Positions 5,247 to 30,346 of a stretch of DNA of 64,000 nt are shown piece by piece. Source of the stretch: Mesostigma viride (Eukaryota; Streptophyta; Mesostigmatophyceae; Mesostigmatales; Mesostigmataceae). The notes beneath the pieces are model-generated. The model was not told the DNA's origin. It worked only from the letters and a program-made list of their open reading frames with translations, and did not search any database. Position numbers and translations under genes: made by a program. Location: positions 8,879,628 to 8,943,627 of the forward strand of contig RPFO01000080.1 in NCBI GenBank assembly GCA_009746045.1, in the 5' to 3' direction. How positions within the stretch are numbered: position 1 is the stretch's first letter; each line of letters starts with the position of its first letter.

Positions 5247-7528
5247 GTAATGGGTGGCCTCCTCCTCCGCCAGCAACAAGCAGAAGTGAGGGGGCGCGGC
5301 GTGTTCCCCCTCCCAGTTCCGGCCGTCCAGCCCCTCGACCGCTCCCGCCTGCGCTCACGACGCAGGCTGCAGCGAGCCACGCGGCGGCGGGCACGCTTGC
5401 TGCTCATGGTCCGGCTCGTGGAAGGCCTGAACTGGATGTGGGGGGGGACACGGGAACCGCCTGTGGGGGCGGCCGGGTGTGGGGCGGGGCCAGCAATGGC
5501 CACGCCTGCCGGCGGGCCCCCAGGGCGCGGCACTAGCGGGGCGACGGCAACGGCTCCCTGCACCGCTGCCCAGCAGGCGGCCCTACAAGGGCTGGAGATT
5601 GCCGCCCAGGTCCATGAGCGCCGGCTGAGAGCCGTAGCGGCAGAGGACCTGGTGCATGACGTTGAGTCTGGGCCCTATGGGCCCGACGGGCAATATGAAA
5701 TGATTGTCCCAGAGAGACTTGCGCTGCCCGCGGGCGGAGTGGCGGGCAGCGTGCCGCTGATGGGCTGCCTCCCCCCCCAGTGGAGGGAGGTATATGGCAA
5801 CATAAAAAATATTTTGAGGGAGGAGGAGGTAGTGCAGCCAGGGCGTCGAAGGCGAGTGACGCATGGCTGTGCGAGCGACACAGAGTACGCGCGCCTGAGC
5901 GTGCGGCTGGCGGAGACCGGGATGACAGAGTACAGCGAGGAGGAGCCCCCGGTCACCAACGGCCTGTTCGGCGTGCCCAAGCGCGATCCAGGGTGGTGGA
6001 CCCGTCAGCCCAGCGCCAGCGACTCATCTGCAACATGGTGCAGAGCAACGACAAGTTCCTCACCCCTGGCGGCTGTTACCTGCCAGATGTGGGGGCGGTG
6101 GCCGAGATGGCAGGGGGCGCGCCCAGCTACTCGAGCGAAACGGACCTGGAGACGTACTACTACCGCTTCTCCGTGCCAACGGAGTGGCGGGAGTGGTTCG
6201 CGCTGCCCCCAGTCTGGTCGGACGAGGTCGGCCAGCCAGGGGAGCGCCGCCGGCTCTATCCCAGGTTCCGTGTTCTGGTGATGGGGTGGTCTCACTCGGT
6301 CCTGCTGGCGCAGGTGGCGCACATGCAGACCCTGTTCGGGCCGGGGAAGCTGAACCCCGGGCTGAGTGTGAGCGTTCCGATGCATCAGCTCGGGGTGCGC
6401 ACAGTGCGTGAGGGAGGACGGGAGTGGATGGAGTTGGTGGGGGCCGCCGAACTTGACTGGCAGCTGCTGCCCGAGGACCCTCCTCGGCCGGCGCAGTTGG
6501 TCATGATCGACGACCTGGGCACCACACACGCGCGCAGCACAGCGGAGGCGAACGCGCTGCTGGACCGCGCATGCACCGAGTGCTACGCGCCAGCTGGCCT
6601 GGTGGTGAATGAGAAAAAGGTCGAGCGGGCGCGGGCAGGTCAAGCTGTGGAGATCCTGGGCATCGAGTTTCACCAAGATGGGAGCTTGTGGCCGTCGGCG
6701 AAGCGACTGGCCCTCCTGGTCCACGACACCGAGGCGGTGCTGGCCCGGGGACGTGCAAGCTACCATGAGTTGGCCTCCCTACTGGGACGCTGGGTATGGA
6801 TCCAGCTGCTGCGCAGGAGTCTGCTAAGCACCTGGTTCCACGCCTACAGGATGCTCCACCAAGTGCTGGCCCTCCGCAAGGGAGGACGCTTCCAACTCTG
6901 GGCAAGTGTGCGCCGGGAGCTCTGGGCGGCTGTCTGCCTGGCTCCCCTGGTGCATGCGCAGCGCAACCAGCCACTGGACACCACCGTCGTGGCCAGTGAC
7001 GCGTCGAGCCGGGGCTCCGGTGTGGTGTACGCCCCGTCTGGCAGAGGCAGACGTGAAGGCTTTGTCCAACTGCCGCGAAATGAAGGGGTGGAAGACTCTG
7101 TGTGTCGGGTCGGAAGAGGTCGGTGTGGAGCGAACGGGGGAGAGGGAACATCGGGCGGTGGCGACCGCCCGCTGGCGTGTGGCGGTGAAACACCGGTGGA
7201 GGGACGCGGGGGCGCACATCAATGAGAAAGAGGCGCGCGCAGCCGTGCAGAGCCTGGAGTGGGGGCTGCGCACGCGGGCGCGGTGGGGGCGACGGCACGT
7301 ACGGCTGGTGGATAACACCGCCGTTCTGGGCGCAGTGGTGAAGGGGCGGTCATCATCTTACCGCCTCAACACGTGGTGCCGCCGCGCTGCCGCCCTGGGC
7401 TGTGCCAGCATCGAACACCAGGTACCACTGGGTGTACATCCGCTCGGAGCGAAACCCCGCTGACGCGCCCAGCCGGGGCCGGTGGGTGCGGGACCTTACC
7501 GCCGATGGCGATGTGGAGAGTAACCCGG
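5247..7528 (+). pseudogene. DIRS-like pol, copy A (RT and RNase H part)
   Basis: Nearly identical to the minus-strand pol at 11849-15036, but disabled. Comparison shows a 1-nt loss near 5990 (after the sequence coding for PKRDPG), a 1-nt gain near 7033, and a 4-nt gain near 7411. The RT motif A reads SETDLETYYYRF and motif C reads MIDDLG; RNase H motifs (SDASS, NEKEA, LVDNTA) follow. At 7528 the reading is cut inside the codons for the 2A-like motif by the split-repeat element; it resumes at 10822. Confidence 0.85.
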
Positions 7529-10500
7529 TCCCTATGCATGTCTCAACTCGTTCACTCCATCACTGAGGGCTCTAGACATTATTTTTTACAAAATACGTTT
7601 ACGCACAAGAGACTCTTGGAGCAAAGTCGCATAATTGGTGAATAAAGCATCTGCAGGCCCCCCCAGCCAGCTGATGCTGCCATCTCACTTCCCTCAGGGT
7701 GGGTTGGGTGGGCTAATAAAAACGAATACCAGCACAGGCACACCTCGGCTGGTTATATGCCAGCACTTTTTCTCAGACTTGGGCCAGCGGCGGCCCAGGT
7801 CCTTCTAATTCGGGTCGAAACACAATTCCGTGACCCATACAATATTCGTACACCATGCGAAGTGGCAGCGTACTTGCCCACCGTGGCGGATGCAAGTCCG
7901 GTACACCTGGTTTTGGCGCCAAAAGCACCCTTGGCCAGTTGTACTACAAGGAACCCATCCCTACTAATTCTTTTGACATTGTACTACGTTTAGTCTTGGT
8001 CTACTACACCCCAGTAGGTTCGTTCACCTCCTGAGCGTCCAGTGCTACGCCGAAGCACGTCAGCACTGGTTTGAACTAGAATGAACTAGTTTGAAGTAGA
8101 TTGAAGTAGACTGTACTACCCTGTAGGCCAAGTGAAGTACTTGGAACTACATCCAAGTACTTAGAACTAGTTTACAAGTTACTCGTACGGACTTACACCC
8201 TATTAGAGGGCAGATCTCGTACCACCACACTGGCGCCCCTTATTAAATTCCAGGGCCCTTATAAATTGTGACTACTGCCCCTTATAAAAGACCAGGGCCT
8301 ATTATAAAATATTAAATGCTCTATTTATTTTTTATATGTGCTGTCACCCAGCGGCGTCCCTCGCCTCCTTCGCTCCCTCCTCCCCGACAAATCAGGGAAT
8401 CCAGATCGAGGGAGATCAACCATCCCTATGCATGTCTCAACTCGTTCACTCCATCACTGAGGGCTCCAGACATTATTTTTTACAAAATACGTTTACGCAC
8501 AAGAGACTCTTGGACCAAAGTCGCATAATTGGTGAATAAAGCATCTGCAGGCCCCCCCAGCCAGCTGATGCTGCCATCTCACTTCCCGCTTCCCCCAGCC
8601 TGGCCATTCTGGCCGTGGAGGACCCGTCACCAATAGTGAAGGCCTAGCATGCCTGCTAGAGTGCCCCTCACTTACTGGTCGCGGGGAAGCCTGTCACCAA
8701 CAGTGGGGCCCCAGCTTGTCTGCTGGAGTGCGCCCCACTAGCGAAGTCTCAAACAATGCCTTGATCCCCCTTGGATAGGAGAGAACAGCGTCCAACCAAA
8801 GGTACGGTCAATCAATCCCCCACACCTTTCCCCCCTCCTCGTCCAGCGAAAATAGCTGGCACGTCTGCCAACTTCCACCCTACACCATCCTCCTCGCGCT
8901 CCTCATGCCATAACTGTCACGATCCAGTGCTATGGCCCAGCGACTCGCCAAAAGTCACATGCCACAAGCTGCCGCTACGGTCACAGCCCTCTGTTTGCAG
9001 GGCGTAACCCGGGGTGCAAGCATCCCCAGGTACTCGCCCTAGAGGGCTGCCGGCGGCATACATAGCAAGGTGTAATCTCCATTCCATTCTCAGGACAGCT
9101 AGCCGGTCACTTAGGCTATCTTGAGCAAGCGCCCCTGCTCTTAGCCCTCACAACCGTCAAAACCAGCCGGTCTCACCAGGCTCCCCCCATTGCCTGCCCA
9201 CCTCTTGGATGCCATTACAGATGTCATCCCAAAGCTCTCAGGGTTCCAGCCTGGCAGCGCCCAAAAGTCTTTTTACGTAGGCCGCTCATTTTGCCTCCCC
9301 CCAGTTCCAAAACACCACAGTTCTTAGCTCCCCAAAGCCGTCAAGAAAGGCACCTCCCCCAACCGGCCACCACTGGCCCAAGGCCGCAGAGCCGCCCTAC
9401 CACCACGTAAGCCCTCGAGAAATAAAATCCAGGGAGCCACACCCAGCGCTCCTTCAGCCACCGGTTTTCCCCATAAATTTCGGCTCCACATATTCTTTTT
9501 CACGTTACCATCACGTAATGGACCAGCCGACCCGCTCCATCAAAGCCATCGGGCTGTGACGCGGTATGCCCTGCCCGCAAAGCCCCGAGAGCCAAAGATA
9601 GCTAATGATGCCGCATTCAGATCTTGGGCAGCCGGCTTTGCAGCCTACTATATTTTTTACACTGCTCGTCGTTGAGGGTCATCATGCAAGGCAGTATCAA
9701 ACGTAAAACAGCTCGAACAAGCACGCCCAGGGCCGAAATAGAATTTTCGTTCCCTTACCGCACTTTCCGGCCTTGCGACTCAATTTCGGGTCAAAATTTC
9801 TATGCCCACCCCTCAAACGACGGGACAGCAGCCGGCCACCTTTGCTCGTCGTTTAGGACCATCGAAACAGGTCCAAGCAACCTTTATTCGCCTCGTCCCA
9901 GGTCAGTTAAGGCCGAAAAAGATTGCCGGCACCCTACCGCAGATTTCGGCACTAAATCCGCAATTTCTGCCCCGATTTTCAACGACTGGCCCTCAAACGA
10001 CCGCTTGGACGCCGACCACCGTCGCGCGTCTCCAAATAAAATTCATTCCCAGCCCCCCCGGACTCGGGGAGGCCTTTTGCATTCGTTTAAATCATTGCCA
10101 GCCACCATGGCTGGCCGTCACCACTAATAAAAACGAATACCAGCACAGGCACACCTCGGCTGGTTATATGCCAGCACTTTTTCTCAGACTTGGGCCGGCG
10201 GCGGCCCAGGTCCTTCTAATTCGGGTCGAAACACAATTCCGTGACCCATACAATATTCGTACACCATGCGAAGTGGCAGCGTACTTGCCCACCGTGGCGG
10301 ATGCAAGTCCGGTACACCTGGTTTTGGCGCCAAAAGCACCCTTGGCCAGTTGTACTACAAGGAACCCATCCCTACTAATGCTTTTGACATTGTACTACGT
10401 TTAGTCACCCCAGTAGGTTCGTTCACCTCCTGAGCGTCCAGTGCTACGCCGAAGCACGTCAGCACTGGTTTGAACTAGAATGAACTAGTTTGAAGTAGAT

Positions 10501-10821
10501 TGAAGTAGACTGTACTACCCTGTAGGCCAAGTGAAGTACTTGGAACTACATCCAAGTACTTAGAACTAGTTTACAAGTTACTCGTACGGACTTACACCCT
10601 ATTAGAGGGCAGATCTCGTACCACCACACTGGCGCCCCTTATTAAATTCCAGGGCCCTTATAAATTGTGACTACTGCCCCTTATAAAAGACCAGGGCCTA
10701 TTATAAAATATTAAATGCTCTATTTATTTTTTATATGTGCTGTCACCCAGCGGCGTCCCTCGCCTCCTTCGCTCCCTCCGCCCCGACAAATCAGGGAATC
10801 CAGATCGAGGGAGATCAACCA
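7529..10821 (-). mobile_element. non-autonomous split-direct-repeat DIRS/PAT-like element, copy 1
   Basis: On the minus strand the order is A1 (10821-10124), unique interior (10123-8588), B1 (8587-8423), A2 (8422-7713), a short linker, B2 (7693-7529). A1/A2 and B1/B2 are near-identical direct pairs; A1 lacks 12 bp present in A2. The B1-A2 junction reads TCCCTATG on one side and GATCAACCA on the other. No RT, RNase H or recombinase is present. It sits in copy A of the DIRS pol between 'taacccgg' and 'gtccggga' with no target duplication, as expected for insertion by tyrosine recombinase. A 3.3-kb near-identical copy lies at 15037-18335. Confidence 0.8.
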
Positions 10822-11167
10822 GTCCGGGAGGGCGGCAGGAACTGCTGGAGAGCACCGTGCTGCCCGCGACCCTGCGCAGCTACCATCGCGCAGTGTTCGC
10901 GTACCTCCTGTGGGCTGAGCCCTATGGTGCTGTACCGCCGGAGGAAGCGGAGAGCGTGTTCTGCGAGTGGCTCGTGTCTGTCTACGAGGATGGAGGGGGA
11001 GCAGGGCGTTCCATGTGCATGAGGGCGCTGTGTGGGCTGCAACTGTACTACCCCAGCCAAGTGCAGGGGTGGCGCGAGGCCCGCCGGCTCCTCTACGGGT
11101 GGCAGCGACGCGTGCAAACGCGTAGCCCCAATCCGGTGCCGTGGGAGCTGCTCTACCTGGTGGTGCA
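10822..11167 (+). pseudogene. DIRS-like pol, copy A (start of recombinase domain)
   Basis: Continues copy A after the split-repeat element. It encodes the N-terminal part of the tyrosine recombinase region, equivalent to residues of about 573-690 of the minus-strand copy, and stops at 11167 where unrelated orientation begins. The catalytic part of the recombinase is missing. Confidence 0.8.
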
Positions 11168-11358
11168 GATCTACCCTGTAGTACCAATGAAGTACTTTGA
11201 ACTACATCCAAGTACTTGGAAGCAGTCCAGAGGTCATTTGCAGGGACTTTCACCCTTTCCAGGAGCATTTCTCGCAGATCAGCCATGAGGCAGCGGCACC
11301 GACTCGCACTCCGCTCCCCTTAGTCGCAAATCAGGGAATCCAGATCGTAAGATCAACC
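11168..11358 (-). repeat. A-type repeat fragment of the coding DIRS-like element
   Basis: Diverged relative of the A repeat of the non-autonomous elements: it shares the 'aagtacttgga' block and the terminal 'aatccagatcg...gatcaacca' end. It abuts the B-type region at 11359 exactly as A2 abuts B1 in the non-autonomous element. It is truncated at 11168 by the opposed copy A. Confidence 0.65.
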
Positions 11359-11848
11359 ATCCTCTGTGCATGCTTTCAGGTTCACTTTGTTTGAGAAGGC
11401 ACCAGAACTTGTTTATTGCAAAATTATATGCTTAAGCCGCTTGCAGGCCTTGGTAGACCGAGAGACTGGCAAATTGTGCGCAAGTCCCAGGCGGCTGCCA
11501 CCATATAACACCCGCATCTCCAACCTGGCCGTCCCCGGCCGCATCTGGAGTGGTTGTAGAGGGGGAAGCCCTAGCGTGGCTGCTAGAGTGCGCCTCCCCT
11601 GCACCTGTCAACGCAGGTACCCGCAGAGCCCTAGTGTATCCACTAGAGTGCGCCCCACCGGCTCTGTCCAAGGCAGGATACGGTCAAAGTTGAGCCAAAC
11701 CGGAAATCAGGATGATGGCGCGACGCCCAAAACCAGCAGGGCCCCAGCGTGTCCGCTGGAGTGCGCCCTGCCGACTCCTCCAATGGAGCTGCATCGTTTT
11801 ATACTGCGCCCCCCGGCCTAGACCGGGGCAGGCGCATCCCCACACTTG
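11359..11848 (-). repeat. 3' region and B-type repeat of DIRS-like copy B
   Basis: Lies downstream of the minus-strand pol stop. The segment next to the stop is shared, inverted, with 30167-30346 downstream of another DIRS 3' fragment ('gcgcagtataaaacgatgcag', 'gttttgggcgtcgcgcc'). It also contains the 'gcccc/agcgtgtccgctggagtgcgcc' block seen in the non-autonomous interior near 8703-8740. It therefore marks the 3' end of the autonomous element. Confidence 0.65.
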
Positions 11849-14467
11849 CTATGGCCAGTGTGAACTCCACTGAGCGGGGGGGAACTCCTCAGCCAGCAAC
11901 CACACCCACCGCGGCACTTGCACCACTAGAGCACGGTGCAGGCCCACGTAGTGGTCCACCGACTTGAACTGGCGCCAACGCCCGCGCTTCTGGATGTCTG
12001 GGAGTGAAACGCCCTGCAGGTAGTCGTACGTTGCCCCACCATGTCGCATGGAGTAGGGCGGAAACATCCCCCGCAGGCCCAGAACATCCCACGCCGCGTG
12101 CCACCGACGAGAGAACTGGCTGTAGTTGAGGCTCCCAAACAAGGGCTCCTCGGGCTCCCGCCCAGCGCACAGGCGCTCGAGCACGTACAGCGAGAGGGGA
12201 TCCTGCACCACCACCGCCTGTGCACCCCCCTTGGCTGTCTTGGGATCCCGCAGAAGAAGCGCGCCCAGGCCTCGCTGCCCCAGGCGACGGTCGCCGCGCA
12301 GCGCCACGTCCCCCACTCGGAGCTTGAAGGCCTCCCCGATGCGCAGGTATTGCTGGAAAGTGATGACGCACACGGCTGCTGCCATGGGCGCCCCCTGCCA
12401 GCGGAGGATCTGCACCACCAGGTAGAGCAGCTCCCACGGCACCGGATTGGGGCTATGTGTTTGCACGCGTCGCTGCCACCCGTACAGGAGCCGGCGGGCC
12501 TCGCGCCACCCCTGCACTTGGCTGGGGTAGTACAGTTGCAGCCCACACAGCGCCCTCATGCACATGGAACGCCCTGCTCCCCCTCCATCCTCGTAGACAG
12601 ACACGAGCCACTCGCAGAACACGCTCTCCGCTTCCTCCGGCGGTACAGCACCATAGGGCTCAGCCCAAAGAAGGTACGCGATCACTGCGCGATGGTAGCT
12701 GCGCAGGGTCGCGGGCAGCACGGTGCTCTCCAGCAGTTCCTGCCGCCCTCCCGGCCCCGGGTTACTCTCCACATCGCCATCGGCGGTAAGGTCCCGCACC
12801 CACCGGCCCCGGCTGGGCGCGTCAGCGGGGTTTCGCTCCGAGCGGATGTACACCCAGTGGTACCTGGTGTTGCTGGCACAGCCCAGGGCGGCAGCGCGGC
12901 GGCACCACGTGTTGAGGCGGTAAGATGATGACCGCCCCTTCACCACTGCGCCCAGAACGGCGGTGTTATCCACCAGCCGTACGTGCCGTCGCCCCCACCG
13001 CGCCCGCGTGCGCAGCCCCCACTCCAGGCTCTGCACGGCTGCGCGCGCCTCTTTCTCATTGATGTGCGCCCCCGCGTCCCTCCACCGGTGTTTCACCGCC
13101 ACACGCCAGCGGGCGGTCGCCACCGCCCGATGTTCCCTCTCCCCCGTTCGCTCCACACCGACCTCTTCCGACCCGACACACAGAGTCTTCCACCCCTTCA
13201 TTTCGCGGCAGTTGGACAAAGCCTTCACGTCTGCCTCTGCCAGACGGGCGTACACCACACCGGAGCCCCGGCTCGACGCGTCACTGGCCACGACGGTGGT
13301 GTCCAGTGGCTGGTTGCGCTGCGCATGCACCAGGGGAGCCAGGCAGACAGCCGCCCAGAGCTCCCGGCGCACACTTGCCCAGAGTTGGAAGCGTCCTCCC
13401 TTGCGGAGGGCCAGCACTTGGTGGAGCATCCTGTAGGCGTGGAACCAGGTGCTTAGCAGACTCCTGCGCAGCAGCTGGATCCATACCCAGCGTCCCAGTA
13501 GGGAGGCCAACTCATGGTAGCTTGCACGTCCCCGGGCCAGCACCGCCTCGGTGTCGTGGACCAGGAGGGCCAGTCGCTTCGCCGACGGCCACAAGCTCCC
13601 ATCTTGGTGAAACTCGATGCCCAGGATCTCCACAGCTTGACCTTCCCGCGCCCGCTCGACCTTTTTCTCATTCACCACCAGGCCAGCTGGCGCGTAGCAC
13701 TCGGTGCATGCGCGGTCCAGCAGCGCGTTCGCCTCCGCTGCGCTGCGCGCGTGTGTGGTGCCCAGGTCGTCGATCATGACCAACTGCGCCGGCCGAGGAG
13801 GGTCCTCGGGCAGCAGCTGCCAGTCAAGTTCGGCGGCCCCCACCAACTCCATCCACTCCCGTCCTCCCTCACGCACTGTGCGCACCCCGAGCTGATGCAT
13901 CGGGACGCTCACACTCAGCCCGGGGTTCAGCTTCCCCGGCCCGAACAGGGTCTGCATGTGCGCCACCTGCGCCAGCAGGACCGAGTGAGACCACCCCATC
14001 ACCAGAACACGGAACCTGGGATAGAGCCGGCGGCGCTCCCCGGGCTGGCCGACCTCGTCCGACCAGACTGGGGGCAGCGCGAACCACTCCCGCCACTCCG
14101 TTGGCACGGAGAAGCGGTAGTAGTACGTCTCCAGGTCCGTTTTGCTCGAGTAGCTGGGCGCGCCCCCTGCCATCTCGGCCACCGCCCCCACATCTGGCAG
14201 GTAACAGCCGCCAGGGGTGAGGAACTTGTCGTTGCTCTGCACCATGTTGCAGATGAGTCGCTGGCGCTGGGCTGACGGGTCCACCACCCCTGGATCGCGC
14301 TTGGGCACGCCGAACAGGCCGTTGGTGACCGGGGGCTCCTCCTCGCTGTACTCTGTCATCCCGGTCTCCGCCAGCCGCACGCTCAGGCGCGCGTACTCTG
14401 TGTCGCTCGCACAGCCATGCGTCACTCGCCGTCGACGCCCTGGCTGCACTACCTCCTCCTCCCTCAA
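11849..14467 (-). CDS. DIRS-like pol: RT, RNase H, 2A-like motif, tyrosine recombinase
   Basis: Open for 872 codons. RT motif A contains D111 (KTDLETYYY), the B-like region VLVMGWSHSVLLAQ is near 154-167, and motif C is D233-D234 (MIDDLG). RNase H acidic residues fit D396 (SDASS), E471/E473 and D500 (LVDNTA), with NPADAPS near 546-552. A 2A-like DVESNPGP occupies 565-572. The recombinase follows: R709 (YLRIGEA), YSMR at 805-808, W831, and the nucleophile Y840 (VDHYVG). The usual His of the HxxR box is Tyr here. The true start lies further upstream (see 14476-15036), separated by a 1-nt slip in a G run near 14510. This is the most intact mobile-element gene in the window. Confidence 0.9.
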   Translation of the reverse strand: MREEEVVQPGRRRRVTHGCASDTEYARLSVRLAETGMTEYSEEEPPVTNGLFGVPKRDPGVVDPSAQRQRLICNMVQSNDKFLTPGGCYLPDVGAVAEMAGGAPSYSSKTDLETYYYRFSVPTEWREWFALPPVWSDEVGQPGERRRLYPRFRVLVMGWSHSVLLAQVAHMQTLFGPGKLNPGLSVSVPMHQLGVRTVREGGREWMELVGAAELDWQLLPEDPPRPAQLVMIDDLGTTHARSAAEANALLDRACTECYAPAGLVVNEKKVERAREGQAVEILGIEFHQDGSLWPSAKRLALLVHDTEAVLARGRASYHELASLLGRWVWIQLLRRSLLSTWFHAYRMLHQVLALRKGGRFQLWASVRRELWAAVCLAPLVHAQRNQPLDTTVVASDASSRGSGVVYARLAEADVKALSNCREMKGWKTLCVGSEEVGVERTGEREHRAVATARWRVAVKHRWRDAGAHINEKEARAAVQSLEWGLRTRARWGRRHVRLVDNTAVLGAVVKGRSSSYRLNTWCRRAAALGCASNTRYHWVYIRSERNPADAPSRGRWVRDLTADGDVESNPGPGGRQELLESTVLPATLRSYHRAVIAYLLWAEPYGAVPPEEAESVFCEWLVSVYEDGGGAGRSMCMRALCGLQLYYPSQVQGWREARRLLYGWQRRVQTHSPNPVPWELLYLVVQILRWQGAPMAAAVCVITFQQYLRIGEAFKLRVGDVALRGDRRLGQRGLGALLLRDPKTAKGGAQAVVVQDPLSLYVLERLCAGREPEEPLFGSLNYSQFSRRWHAAWDVLGLRGMFPPYSMRHGGATYDYLQGVSLPDIQKRGRWRQFKSVDHYVGLHRALVVQVPRWVWLLAEEFPPAQWSSHWP
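12752..12775 (-). other. 2A-like ribosome-skipping motif
   Basis: The codons read D-V-E-S-N-P-G-P, a perfect match to the D-x-E-x-N-P-G-P consensus at which ribosomes skip the last Gly-Pro bond. It stands 16 residues after the final RNase H motif (NPADA) and directly before the recombinase domain, where a polyprotein break would release the integrase. The preceding residues (RDLTADG) are not strongly hydrophobic, so activity is not assured. Confidence 0.75.
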
Positions 14468-14475
14468 AATATTTT

Positions 14476-15036
14476 TTATGTTGCCATATACCTCCCTCCA
14501 CTGGGGGGGAGGCAGTCCATCAGCGGCACGCTGCCCGCCACTCCGCCCGCGGGCAGCGCAAGTCTCTCTGGGACAATCATTTCATATTGCCCGTCGGGCC
14601 CATAGGGCCCAGACTCAACGTCATGCACCAGGTCCTCTGCCGCTACGGCTCTCAGCCGGCGCTCATGGACCTGGGCGGCAATCTCCAGCCCTTGTAGGGC
14701 CGCCTGCTGGGCAGCGGTGCAGGGAGCCGTTGCCGTCGCCCCGCTAGTGCCGCGCCCTGGGGGCCCGCCGGCAGGCGTGGCCATTGCTGGCCCCGCCCCA
14801 CACCCGGCCGCCCCCACAGGCGGTTCCCGTGTCCCCCCCCACATCCAGTTCAGGCCTTCCACGAGCCGGACCATGAGCAGCAAGCGTGCCCGCCGCCGCG
14901 TGGCTCGCTGCAGCCTGCGTCGTGAGCGCAGGCGGGAGCGGTCGAGGGGCTGGACGGCCGGAACTGGGAGGGGGAACACGCCGCGCCCCCTCACTTCTGC
15001 TTGTTGCTGGCGGAGGAGGAGGCCACCGCCCCCCCA
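14476..15036 (-). CDS. N-terminal extension of DIRS-like pol
   Basis: Open frame in a different phase from 11849-14467. It encodes an Arg-rich segment followed by a Gly/Pro/Ala-rich linker and a stretch (HDVESGPYGPDGQYE) leading to RT. Copy A at 5247-5990 carries both parts in one frame, which shows that copy B has a 1-nt deletion in the C/G run near 14510. The 5' side is cut at 15036 by the second split-repeat element. Confidence 0.7.
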   Translation of the reverse strand, partial: WGGGGLLLRQQQAEVRGRGVFPLPVPAVQPLDRSRLRSRRRLQRATRRRARLLLMVRLVEGLNWMWGGTREPPVGAAGCGAGPAMATPAGGPPGRGTSGATATAPCTAAQQAALQGLEIAAQVHERRLRAVAAEDLVHDVESGPYGPDGQYEMIVPERLALPAGGVAGSVPLMDCLPPSGGRYMAT

Positions 15037-18000
15037 TCCCTATGCATGTCTCAACTCGTTCACTCCATCATTGAGGGCTCCAGACATTATTTTTTACAAA
15101 ATACGTTTACGCACAAGAGACTCTTGGACCAAAGTCGCATAATTGGTGAATAAAGCATCTGCAGCCCCCCCCAGCCAGCTGATGCTGCCATCTCCCTCCC
15201 CTCAGGGTGGGTTGGGTGGGCTAATAAAAACGAATACCAGCACAGGCACACCTCGGCTGGTTATATGCCAGCACTTTTTCTCAGACTTGGGCCGGCGGCG
15301 GCCCAGGTCCTTCTAATTCGGGTCGAAACACAATTCCGTGACCCATACAATATTCGTACACCATGCGAAGTGGCCGCGTACTTGCCCACTGTGGCGGATG
15401 CAAGTCCGGTACACCTGGTTTTGGCGCCAAAAGCACCCTTGGCCAGTTGTACTACAAGGAACCCATCCCTACTAATTCTTTTGACATTGTACTACGTTTA
15501 GTCTTGGTCTACTACACCCCAGTAGGTCCGTTCACCTCCTGAGCGTCCAGTGCTACGCCGAAGCACGTCAGCACTGGTTTGAACTAGAATGAACTAGTTT
15601 GAAGTAGTTTGAAGGAGACTGTACTACCCTGTAGGCCAAGTGAAGTACTTGGAACTACGTCCAAGTACTTAGAACCAGTTTACAAGTTACTTGTACGGAC
15701 TTTCACCCTATTAAAGGGCAGATCTCGTACCACCACACTGGCGCCCCTTATTAAATTCCAGGGCCCTTATAAATTGTGACTACTGCCCCTTATAAAAGAC
15801 CAGGGCCTATTATAATATTAAATGCTCTATTTATTTTTTATATGTGCTGTCACCCAGCGGCGTCCCCCGCCTCCTTCGCTCCCTCCGCCCCGACACATCA
15901 GGGAATCCAGATCGAGGGAGATCAACCATCCCTATGCATGTCTCAACTCGTTCACTCCATCATTGAGGGCTCCAGACATTATTTTTTACAAAATACGTTT
16001 ACGCACAAGAGACTCTTGGACCAAAGTCGCATAATTGGTGAATAAAGCATCTGCAGGCCCCCCCAGCCAGCTGATGCTGCCATCTCACTCCCCGCTTCCC
16101 CCAGCCTGGCCATTCTGGCCGTGGAGGACCCGTCACCAATAGTGAAGGCCTAGCATGCCTGCTAGAGTGCCCCTCACTTACTGGTCGCGGGGAAGCCTGT
16201 CACCAACAGTGGGGCCCCAGCTTGTCTGCTGGAGTGCGCCCCACTAGCGAAGTCTCAAACAATGCCTTGATCCCCCTTGGATAGGAGAGAACAGCGTCCA
16301 ACCGTAGGTACGGTCAATCAATCCCCCACACCTTTCCCCCCTCCTCGTCCAGCGAAAATAGCTGGCACGTCTGCCACTTCCACCCTACACCATCCTCTTC
16401 GCGCTCCTCATGCCATAACTGTCACGATCCAGTGCTATGGCCCAGCGACTCGCCAAAAGTCACATGCCACAAGCTGCCGCTACGGTCACAGCCCTCTGTT
16501 TGCAGGGCGTAACCCGGGGTGCAAGCATCCCCAGGTACTCGCCCTAGAGGGCTGCCGGCGGCATACATAGCAAGGTGTAATCTCCATTCCATTCTCAGGA
16601 CAGCTAGCTGGTCACTTAGGCTATCTTGAGCAAGCGTCCCTGCTCTTAGCCCTCACAACCGTCAAAACCAGCCGGTCTCACCAGGCTCCCCCCATTGCCT
16701 GCCCACCTCTTGGATGCCATTACAGATGTCATCCCAAAGCTCTCAGGGTACTAGCCTGGCAGCGCCCAAAAGTCTTTTTACGTAGGCCGCTCATTTTGCC
16801 TCCCCCCAGTTCCAAAACACCACAGTCCTTAGCTCCCCAAAGCCGTCAAGAAAGGCACCTCCCCAACCGGCCACCTCTGGCCCAAGGCCGCCGAGCCGCC
16901 CTACCACCACGTAAGCCCTCGAGAAATAAAATCCAGGGAGCCACACCCAGCGCTCCTTCAGCCACCGGTTTTCCCCATAAATTTCGGCTCCACATATTCT
17001 TTTTCACGTTACCATCACGTAATGGACCAGCCGACCCGCTCCTTCAAAGCCATCGGGCTGTGACGCGGTATGCCCTGCCCGCAAAGCCCCGAGAGCCAAA
17101 GATAGCTAATGATGCCGCATTCAGATCTTGGGCAGCCGGCTTTGCAGCCTACTATATTTTTTACACTGCTCGTCGTTGAGGGTCATCATGCAAGGCAGTA
17201 TCAAACGTAAAACAGCTCGAACAAGCACGCCCAGGGCCGAAATAAAATTTTCGTTCCCTTACCGCACTTTCCGGCCTTGCGACTCAATTTCGGGTCAAAA
17301 TTTCTATGCCCACCCCTCAAACGACGGGACAGCAGCCGGCCACCTTTGCTCGTCGTTTAGGACCTTCGAAACAGGTCCAAGCAACCTTTATTCGCCTCGT
17401 CCCAGGTCAGTTAAGGCCGAAAAAGATTGCCGGCACCCTACCACAGATTTCGGCACTAAATCCGCAATTTCTGCCCCGATTTTCAACGACTGGCCCTCAA
17501 ACGACCGCTTGGACGCCGACCACCGTCGCGCGTCTCCAAATAAAATTCATTCCCAGCCCCCCCGGACTCGGGGAGGCCTTTTGCATTCGTTTAAATCATT
17601 GCCAGCCACCATGGCTGGCCGTCACCACTAATAAAAACGAATACCAGCACAGGCACACCTCGGCTGGTTATATGCCAGCACTTTTTCTCAGACTTGGGCC
17701 GGCGGCGGCCCAGGTCCTTCTAATTCGGGTCGAAACACAATTCCGTGACCCATACAATATTCGTACACCATGCGAAGTGGCCGCGTACTTGCCCACTGTG
17801 GCGGATGCAAGTCCGGTACACCTGGTTTTGGCGCCAAAAGCACCCTTGGCCAGTTGTACTACAAGGAACCCATCCCTACTAATTCTTTTGACATTGTACT
17901 ACGTTTAGTCTTGGTCTACTACACCCCAGTAGGTCCGTTCACCTCCTGAGCGTCCAGTGCTACGCCGAAGCACGTCAGCACTGGTTTGAACTAGAATGAA

Positions 18001-18335
18001 CTAGTTTGAAGTAGTTTGAAGTAGACTGTACTACCCTGTAGGCCAAGTGAAGTACTTGGAACTACGTCCAAGTACTTAGAACCAGTTTACAAGTTACTTG
18101 TACGGACTTTCACCCTATTAAAGGGCAGATCTCGTACCACCACACTGGCGCCCCTTATTAAATTCCAGGGCCCTTATAAATTGTGACTACTGCCCCTTAT
18201 AAAAGACCAGGGCCTATTATAATATTAAATGCTCTATTTATTTTTTATATGTGCTGTCACCCAGCGGCGTCCCCCGCCTCCTTCGCTCCCTCCGCCCCGA
18301 CAAATCAGGGAATCCAGATCGAGGGAGATCAACCA
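15037..18335 (-). mobile_element. non-autonomous split-direct-repeat DIRS/PAT-like element, copy 2
   Basis: Same structure as copy 1 on the minus strand: A1 (18335-17628), interior, B1 (about 16092-15929), A2 (15928-15221), B2 (about 15200-15037). The two copies differ at scattered single bases. Here A1 and A2 are both full length. It lies between gag and pol of DIRS-like copy B, in the same orientation as its host element. No target duplication is visible. Confidence 0.8.
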
Positions 18336-19376
18336 TCCACCTTGGCCAGCACCGCCGCGCTGACCCGCGGCGTCGTGCTCCTTCTTGGCGGCCTTGAGAG
18401 CCCGTCGCGCCGCCCTCGTCCGCTGGCTGCCGCTCTCCACCACCGGCAGCACGAAGGCGGCCTGGGCGACCCACGCGCCCTGGCCCCGCTCGCTCTCCAC
18501 CACCATGAGTGACTCCACGATGCGTGCAAAGTACTCCATGCACGCGAGCTCGGTCACCGCCGTGACTCCCAGCTCCTTCACCGCCACGTCCATGGCGTGG
18601 CAGAGGTTGACCGCGATGTCCATGCGCTCGCGACTCTGCCACCCGCTGGTCTGGCCTGGCCCACGGATGAACATGGGCTTCAGGCCCTCCAGCCGGGCCC
18701 GCAGACTGCCCCCGTACCGGTCCTTGGCCGTTTGCAGGTACTCGGGCAGCACCCGCAGCTTGTACCGGTAGTCCTCCACCTCCCAAGGGATGCTGGTGGC
18801 AGTCCCCGGCAGGGCGACCCCCTTGGTCATGGGCACAGCCAACACCTGGCCGCTCGCTGGGTCGGCGCGACCCGGTAGGCGGTCCCTGCGGCGCCGGCTG
18901 CTGCTGCGCCGGCCCGAGTCGCTGCTGCTGTCGCTGCTGCTGCTGCCGCTGCTGCTGCTGCAACGGCACGTGCGATGGCGGCACTTGGGACACTTGGCTG
19001 CCTTGGCTCGCGCCGGTGCTGGGGCCACTGGTTTGGCGCCGGGCAGGATTGTCCCACCCCCCCGCGCCCCTTGCTGGGCCGCTGGGTGTGAGCTGTGCAA
19101 GGGATACCCCTCTGCAGGCTCCTCGTCCCCCGCCACGGACGCGGGGGCCGTCACCCATCCCCCCTGGCCGCCCCGGGGCTCTTCCCCAGTGCCTGGGCCT
19201 CCAGCCCCCGGCCACCCGGCTCCCCAGTACCCCGGGGGGGGGGCAGGCACCCAGTAACCGCCCCCTGGCACTGCTCCTTCCCCTGCCCCACTGGTGTACC
19301 CCCATGGAGGGGCTACCCCCGTGGCGTGCAGGCCACCAGCCCACAGTGGGGGTGGTTTTACCGGATTAGGATACAT
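18336..19376 (-). CDS. DIRS-like gag (ORF1) of copy B
   Basis: Begins at ATG 19376 (MYPNPVKPP); an in-frame ATG also lies two codons upstream. About 115 residues are rich in G, P and W. A Cys/His cluster (CPKCRHRTCRC) follows, then a Ser/Arg-rich segment and a helical region (about 180 residues; IPWEVEDYRYKL, MDIAVNLCHAMDV, MEYFARIVESL) that could form the capsid-like part. It lies upstream of pol on the same strand; the true 3' end is replaced by the split-repeat element at 18335. Assignment as gag rests on position, composition and the zinc-knuckle-like cluster. Confidence 0.6.
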
Positions 19377-19402
19377 TTGCACGGCTTCAAATGTATCCTA
19401 AA
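19351..19402. other. gag start block and hairpin
   Basis: A perfect 12-bp inverted repeat (AGGATACATTTG ... CAAATGTATCCT) with an 8-nt loop overlaps the gag start. The adjacent block 'ggtggttttaccggattagg' recurs in inverted orientation at 28566-28592. Both blocks mark a switch from GC-rich element to AT-rich flank. Confidence 0.6.
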
Positions 19403-29453: not shown

Positions 29454-29609
29454 TTAATATGACGTGGAAATTATCGAGCTTTAAAGAGCGCAAAAAGAAC
29501 GAGTGATTTTGACCAAGAAACGGCAAAGAAAACTGATAAAGCATGCGCCGCCATGTCTTCCTCAATAAATTGGCTGCATTGCATGCGCACGGTGACGGAT
29601 GCAAGTCCG

Positions 29610-30346
29610 GTACAGTACTGGCGTGGCGCATGGCAGCAGCCGTGTGCGTCATCACTTTCCAGCAATACCTGCGCATCGGGGAGGCCTTCAAGCTCCGAGT
29701 GGGGGACGTGGCGCTGCGCGGCGACCGTCGCCTGGGGCAGCGGGGACTGGGCGCGCTTCTTCTGCGGGATCCCAAGACAGCCAAGGGGGGTGCACAGGCG
29801 GTGGTGGTGCAGGATCCCCTCTCGCTGTACGTGCTTGAGCGCCTGTGCGCTGGGCGTGAGCCCCAGGAGCCCTTGTTTGGGAGCCTCAACTACAGCCAGT
29901 TCTCTCGTCGGTGGCACGCGGCGTGGGATGTTCTGGGCCTGTGGGGGATGTTTCCGCCCTACTCCATGCGACATGGTGGGGCAACGTACGACTACCTGCA
30001 GGGCGTTTTACTCCCAGACATCCAGAAGCGCGGGCGTTGGCGCCAGTGCAAGTGGGTGGACCACTACGTGGGCCTGCACCGTGCTCTAGCGGTGCAAGTG
30101 CCGCGGTGGGTGTGGTTGCTGGATGAGGAGTTCCCCCCCGCTCAGTGGAGTTCACACTGGCAGTAGCAAGTGTGGGGATGCGCCTGCCCCGGTCTAGGCC
30201 GGGGGGGCGCAGTATAAAACGATGCAGCTCCGTTGGAGGAGTCGGCAGGGCGCACTCCAGTGGACACGCTGGGGCCCTGCTGGTTTTGGGCGTCGCGCCA
30301 TCATCCTGATTTCCGGTTTGGCTCAACTTCGACCGTATCCTGCCTT
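29610..30346 (+). mobile_element. DIRS-like 3' fragment with recombinase catalytic domain
   Basis: Encodes the catalytic half of the same tyrosine recombinase (ATG-containing MAAAVCVITF through SSHWQ, to 30166): YLRIGEA, YSMRHGGAT, GRWRQ and VDHYVG are all present. The 3' untranslated region to about 30346 matches, inverted, 11695-11848. RT, RNase H and the 2A-like motif are missing. The 5' junction contains a short piece of A-repeat sequence ('ggatgcaagtccggtaca', near 29600). It ends directly in the (GTGG)n tract. Confidence 0.85.

Follow-up and report, generated by a model that had tools for sequence, protein, structure and literature searches.

Retrotransposons with a tyrosine recombinase (YR) are described, in the excerpts of two sources (PMC3266345, PMC6681497), as having separate ORFs for gag, YR, and reverse transcriptase/RNase H (RT/RH), which often overlap. 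The same excerpts give PAT-like elements (PAT, TOC, and Kangaroo) split direct repeats (A1...B1-A2-B2), a gag-like frame, an RT-RNase H, and a tyrosine recombinase. The element that we describe here shares the repeats, the gag-like frame, and the tyrosine recombinase, and probably the RT-RNase H, but its RT-RH and YR are in one frame with a 2A sequence. The single-ORF copies of TATE from Bodo saltans are similar in that gag-like, YR, and RT/RH parts are in one ORF, but no 2A is mentioned for them in the excerpt of PMC6681497.

2A (StopGo) sequences are known from non-LTR retrotransposons, including L1Tc of Trypanosoma cruzi and APE-type elements (PMC4981915, in part). There, as here, the 2A lies inside a retrotransposon frame, but the kind of retrotransposon and the hosts are different. 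A further comparison is with the StopGo sequences of RNA viruses, as classified in the portions of Li et al. 2026 (PMC12846837) that we drew on. The StopGo core is (D/G/C/N)(V/I)ExNPGP, and an upstream signature, WV(R/K)DLTx[acidic]G, is shared. Motif 4 is DLTxDG and is accompanied by D at position 12 (p12) and S at position 15 (p15). Motif 1, (R/K)DLTxE, is shifted by one residue and is accompanied by G (p12) and P (p15). In reticulocyte lysate, the assayed examples of both motifs showed almost 100% activity, and changing the characteristic residues led to a near-complete loss of activity in almost all cases. H at p14 is a rare variant that is active. The element described here has the same core, the same upstream signature, and the same one-residue offset between D-type and G-type cores, but in a cellular retrotransposon and between RNase H and a tyrosine recombinase.

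The window (the whole stretch of Mesostigma viride DNA that we analyzed, 64,000 nucleotides) contains two interrupted copies of this element. In copy 2, the open part of pol (11849–14467, − strand) runs through RT, RNase H, the 2A, and the tyrosine recombinase without a change of frame. The sequence-only reading had described an 872-codon pol. The length is correct, but this frame starts from a TTG just past a frame break (at about 14476), and the N-terminal part of pol (14476–14994, −) is in a different frame from the RT. Residues 230–236 are VMIDDLG (13760–13780, −), which we take to be the catalytic motif of the reverse transcriptase. ASDASS (residues 394–399), HINEKE (468–473), and LVDN (498–501), all within 12956–13288 (−), are presumably the motifs of RNase H, which ends with NPADAPSR (546–553; 12809–12832, −). 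Sequence matches to this part of the protein are RT-RH proteins ending in NPADxxSR; the window protein has no match to a Pfam RT family, and our tree has no named PAT reference.

The rest of the frame (residues 573–872 plus the stop codon; 11849–12751, −) contains YLRIGE, DPKTAKG, MRHGGA, KRGRW, and HYVGL, and probably has a Cre/Xer-like fold. Phage_integrase (PFam PF00589) matches residues 701–841 with E = 3.5e-4, which is below Pfam's cut-off; this family is above the cut-off in two relatives (P0006 and P0026). The predicted structure of the whole protein has a mean pLDDT of 54.6: RT and RNase H are mostly poor, and the catalytic part of the recombinase is usable. The model matches structures of Xer and Cre (best E = 1.6e-5, TM-score to the target 0.46). 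By this Pfam family and the fold match, the element has a tyrosine recombinase in place of an integrase. One box of the recombinase (12032–12058) varies across relatives: it reads Y-S-M-R in family A and H-x-x-R in P0009, P0010, and P0026, and the Y is also found in P0002, P0003, P0004, and P0006.

Between the two enzymes is the octapeptide D-V-E-S-N-P-G-P (residues 565–572; 12752–12775, −). It is in frame, exactly where the sequence-only reading had placed it: after the RNase H motifs (11 residues after NPADAPSR) and directly before the recombinase. The octapeptide fits the StopGo core, and the bond that we predict to be skipped is G571/P572. The nine residues before it, W-V-R-D-L-T-A-D-G (556–564; 12776–12802, −), match motif 4 of Li et al., which suggests an upstream context of the active type. 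The whole signal of 17 residues, WVRDLTADG-DVESNPGP, is motif 4 to the letter: its core fits D(V/I)ExNPGP, its upstream part fits WV(R/K)DLTx[acidic]G, and residues p12 and p15 are D and S.

Insertions interrupt both copies in the window, and copy 2 has the frame break as well, so we considered that the octapeptide might be a chance match or a frame artifact of one decayed copy. However, the back-translated pattern D-V-E-x-N-P-G-P matches just once in the 64 kb and in none of 100 shuffles. A looser pattern that allows one mismatch has one extra match (7510–7532, +), which is the same site in the interrupted copy 1. Given the composition of the ORF, the expected number of D(V/I)ExNPGP matches within it is about 1e-6, or about 7e-16 if the upstream WV(R/K)DLTx[DE]G is added. 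Furthermore, relatives keep the motif. We read 28 loci (L001–L028) of the 56 matches listed in the 440-Mb assembly, and considered only places with an intact NPADxPSR. Of 35 such places (26 from family A and 9 from family B), 34 have NPGP and the remaining one has NPGL, and several other families have the motif as well (see below). So we rejected the chance explanation, which seems very improbable.

Instead, we are confident in proposing that this is a PAT-type element in which a 2A between RNase H and recombinase divides the single pol frame, with a predicted Gly-Pro skip that would free both enzymes. After ...NPG, the last residues of RT-RNase H, the ribosome would skip formation of the Gly-Pro bond and keep translating, which would yield a recombinase of 301 residues that starts with proline. 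The recombinase would be released as a separate DNA-binding integration enzyme, without a second start, an overlapping frame, or a protease. (We know of no protease in DIRS-order elements.) In related elements, a separate ORF seems to serve this purpose.

Family B is about 71% identical to family A, and it retains the signal, although with N instead of D at p6. In both families, the 2A starts two residues past NPADxPSR (GR-WVR...), and the recombinase comes directly after it. Comparing A to B across codons 553–572, 8 of the 20 codons are identical, 11 have synonymous differences, and just one has a nonsynonymous difference; the eight core codons have four synonymous and no nonsynonymous differences. 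Across the whole ORF, 294 codons are identical, 322 are synonymous, and 254 are nonsynonymous; in the adjoining 66 codons, the counts are 16, 25, and 25. The support from these comparisons is modest, as they involve one pair of families: p = 0.015 for synonymous versus nonsynonymous codons in the linker versus the rest, p = 0.005 for nonsynonymous codons in the linker versus the start of the recombinase, and p = 0.031 for the 17-residue signal versus the rest (all Fisher's exact tests).

The expectation that the closest relatives of the element would have NPGP at this place also held outside of families A and B. Proteins that are 66–80% identical contain DVESNPGP (P0002 and P0006), DVEANPGP (P0003), DVERNPGP (P0004), or DVETNPGP (P0007), and NPGP is found at this place in each of P0002–P0007, in P0026, and in a fragment from a further family (L011:8560). 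P0007 is further from the motif, and although its 2A is present, its frame contains no recombinase and stops 38 residues past the RNase H motif. In a tree that leaves out P0026 and P0005, the six 2A-bearing proteins form one clade (support 100/98), and P0009 is the sister of this clade (99/99). We did not accept P0009 as a sister that lacks 2A, as its gene model passes straight from RNase H to recombinase and leaves out the border; the gene models for P0008 and P0011 are also without this stretch. The relatives from databases include Logan sequences. Two others are EukProt models from Mesostigma viride that are 97–99% identical, over parts, to the window's pol (P0005, covering 60% of the query, and P0011, covering 14%). 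One species is probably the source of all three families, A to C, which leaves little evidence across species. When we searched viral contigs for relatives, we found just one weak match, to the recombinase (L030, 30% identity).

Family C is represented by P0026, another model from Mesostigma viride, which is 45% identical to the window's pol. Its signal, WVRDLTAEG-IHPNPGP, corresponds to motif 1 and has the residues preferred by that class at p12 (G) and p15 (P). The fragment at L011:8560 reads WIPDLTRCG-DVHPNPGP. Both have H at p14 instead of the canonical E, which counts against our proposal. At the protein level, all 78 of the scored genome places for family C are 100% identical over 557 amino acids, without stops, and their open frames span 670–3610 codons; we read one place (L038) at the DNA level. 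At least 78 places with an identical protein point to amplification of the family very recently in the Mesostigma genome.

Could the conserved stretch be a plain linker, so that RT-RNase H and recombinase act as one fused protein, with skipping weak or absent? Conservation could reflect folding or binding between the domains. Also, two more distant RT-RH-YR fusions that come from other sources (P0010 and P0027) lack NPGP, so fusion does not require a 2A, and a fused protein may work without skipping. P0010 lies among RT-RH-only proteins in the tree, so its fusion looks independent; P0027 has a long branch and its place in the tree is unsure. However, conservation falls on the residues that StopGo requires, while variation is seen at positions that are free in StopGo (p15 and the residue that follows the final P). 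And the one-residue difference in length in family C mirrors the difference between motifs 1 and 4; a linker would not explain both. So we think a plain linker is unlikely, and we prefer a functional 2A. Since both the core and the residues before it belong to a StopGo class that has been assayed, and the variation between families follows the rules of that class, the signal probably works, and does so efficiently.

The location of the signal can also be compared to where related proteins end. Among 13 related RT-RH proteins without a recombinase that we could see, 12 (P0012 to P0023) end 1–11 residues past the RNase H motif, so the 2A stands about where the others stop. The thirteenth, a partial model from a dinoflagellate (P0025), runs on for 87 residues past the motif. 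Just before the recombinase, P0027 (from JGI) has QPGP and P0024 (from Prorocentrum cordatum) has HPGP, without the other core residues. (The recombinase of P0027 was identified by a Pfam match below the cut-off, and that of P0024 by eye only.) We did not count these as 2A, as the neighboring core residues do not fit; by their sequences, they could be relics, divergent variants, or chance.

A functional 2A need not be complete. Skipping could be partial by design, which is a special case of our proposal and not exclusive of it: some fused RT-RH-YR would be made along with free recombinase, and the fusion would carry the recombinase into the particle with RT. The excerpts of PMC4981915 and PMC12846837 describe functional partial skipping in 2A signal sequences of sea urchins, and the N at p6 in family B or the more divergent sequence of P0007 might lower the efficiency. 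But given that the assayed examples of motif 4 and motif 1 were almost fully active (PMC12846837, in part), we view this as possible but rather doubtful.

The sequence-only reading had called the element DIRS-like. A complete copy from family A (L033, about 6.6 kb) allows a more precise assignment. It has repeats A1 (1603–2078), B1 (7386–7545), A2 (7543–8018), and B2 (8064–8223), with the A repeats 99.8% identical and the B repeats 98.8% identical, and the gag-like and pol frames lie between A1 and B1. With split direct repeats in the order A1-ORFs-B1-A2-B2, the element is a PAT-type tyrosine-recombinase retrotransposon. The inverted terminal repeats and internal complementary region of DIRS1-like elements (sensu stricto) were not seen: the repeats are direct and split, and comparing L033 to itself listed no inverted match. 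Nor was the methyltransferase of DIRS1-like elements among the Pfam matches of P0001, P0002, P0004, and P0006; in pol, RNase H is directly followed by the 2A and the recombinase.

Three other loci (L034, L035, and L015) match L033 at 99.88–99.94% identity over 6.55–6.62 kb, and these alignments end at or near the ends of the element, so family A moved recently. In the complete family-A copies that we read (L015, L033, L035, and L036), the frame is broken on the 5' side of RT, and gag seems to carry a frame break too, so these copies are not fully coding. Either these young, near-identical copies with a shared break are helped by other copies, or they are expressed via a frameshift or an intron. 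Outside family A, a family-B frame in L009 has 1102 codons and encodes RT, RNase H, 2A, and recombinase, and P0002, P0003, and P0004 are unbroken proteins of 1029–1054 residues.

This is likely the first 2A in tyrosine-recombinase retrotransposons. The sequence-only reading knew of no report of this arrangement in DIRS or PAT elements, and our full-text literature searches agree: among the matches listed, no title reports a 2A in a tyrosine-recombinase retrotransposon. The main texts of two Mesostigma genome papers do not contain "DIRS" or "tyrosine recombinase." And we know of no tyrosine recombinase in the non-LTR retrotransposons that have 2A. As for its origin, we lean towards an ancestor that swapped the stop codon between RT-RNase H and recombinase for a virus-type StopGo, which was then kept through at least four families, with a register shift from motif 4 to motif 1. 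If our proposal is correct, then besides being the first StopGo in this kind of retrotransposon, it would be a naturally occurring StopGo in the lineage of green plants. This would place natural use of 2A in a streptophyte alga, whereas Li et al. (PMC12846837) found no natural use in plant viruses. It would also add a way for retrotransposons to separate their enzymes, as compared to the separate or overlapping ORFs that are described for DIRS-order elements (PMC3266345 and PMC6681497, in part). The change of register between families A/B and C would be a natural experiment on which residues of the nascent chain matter, and the alga's signals are candidate 2A tools for algae and plants.

Within the window, copies 1 and 2 are joined tail to tail at 11171 and lack some pieces, in a nested and rearranged cluster. 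Copy 2 retains a terminal repeat B (11357–11516, −; 98.8% identical to B2 of L033) and the first 195 bases of a terminal repeat A (11171–11365, −), which is broken off at 11171. Its gag-like open frame (18339–19382, −) is cut near the 3' end by a 3.3-kb insertion (15034–18338, −), with most of the frame beyond the insertion; L029 and L032 have uninterrupted counterparts. The insertion is a PAT-type element without a pol-like frame, with the repeat order A1-Z-B1-A2-B2. In copy 1, the RT-RNase H part (5253–7528, +; 99.4% identical to copy 2) ends inside the 2A codons, within which another 3.3-kb PAT-type element is inserted (7529–10823, +; 98.0% identical to its counterpart at 15037–18335). The start of the recombinase follows (10824–11171, +) and is broken off at 11171. 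The 3.3-kb elements have A repeats of about 710 bases, which are about 71–75% like those of the autonomous element, and B repeats of about 165 bases; from their sequences, they may be its non-autonomous partners. Finally, a third fragment encodes the C-terminal part of the recombinase (29543–30166, +) and lies with a piece of an A repeat at 29528–30346.
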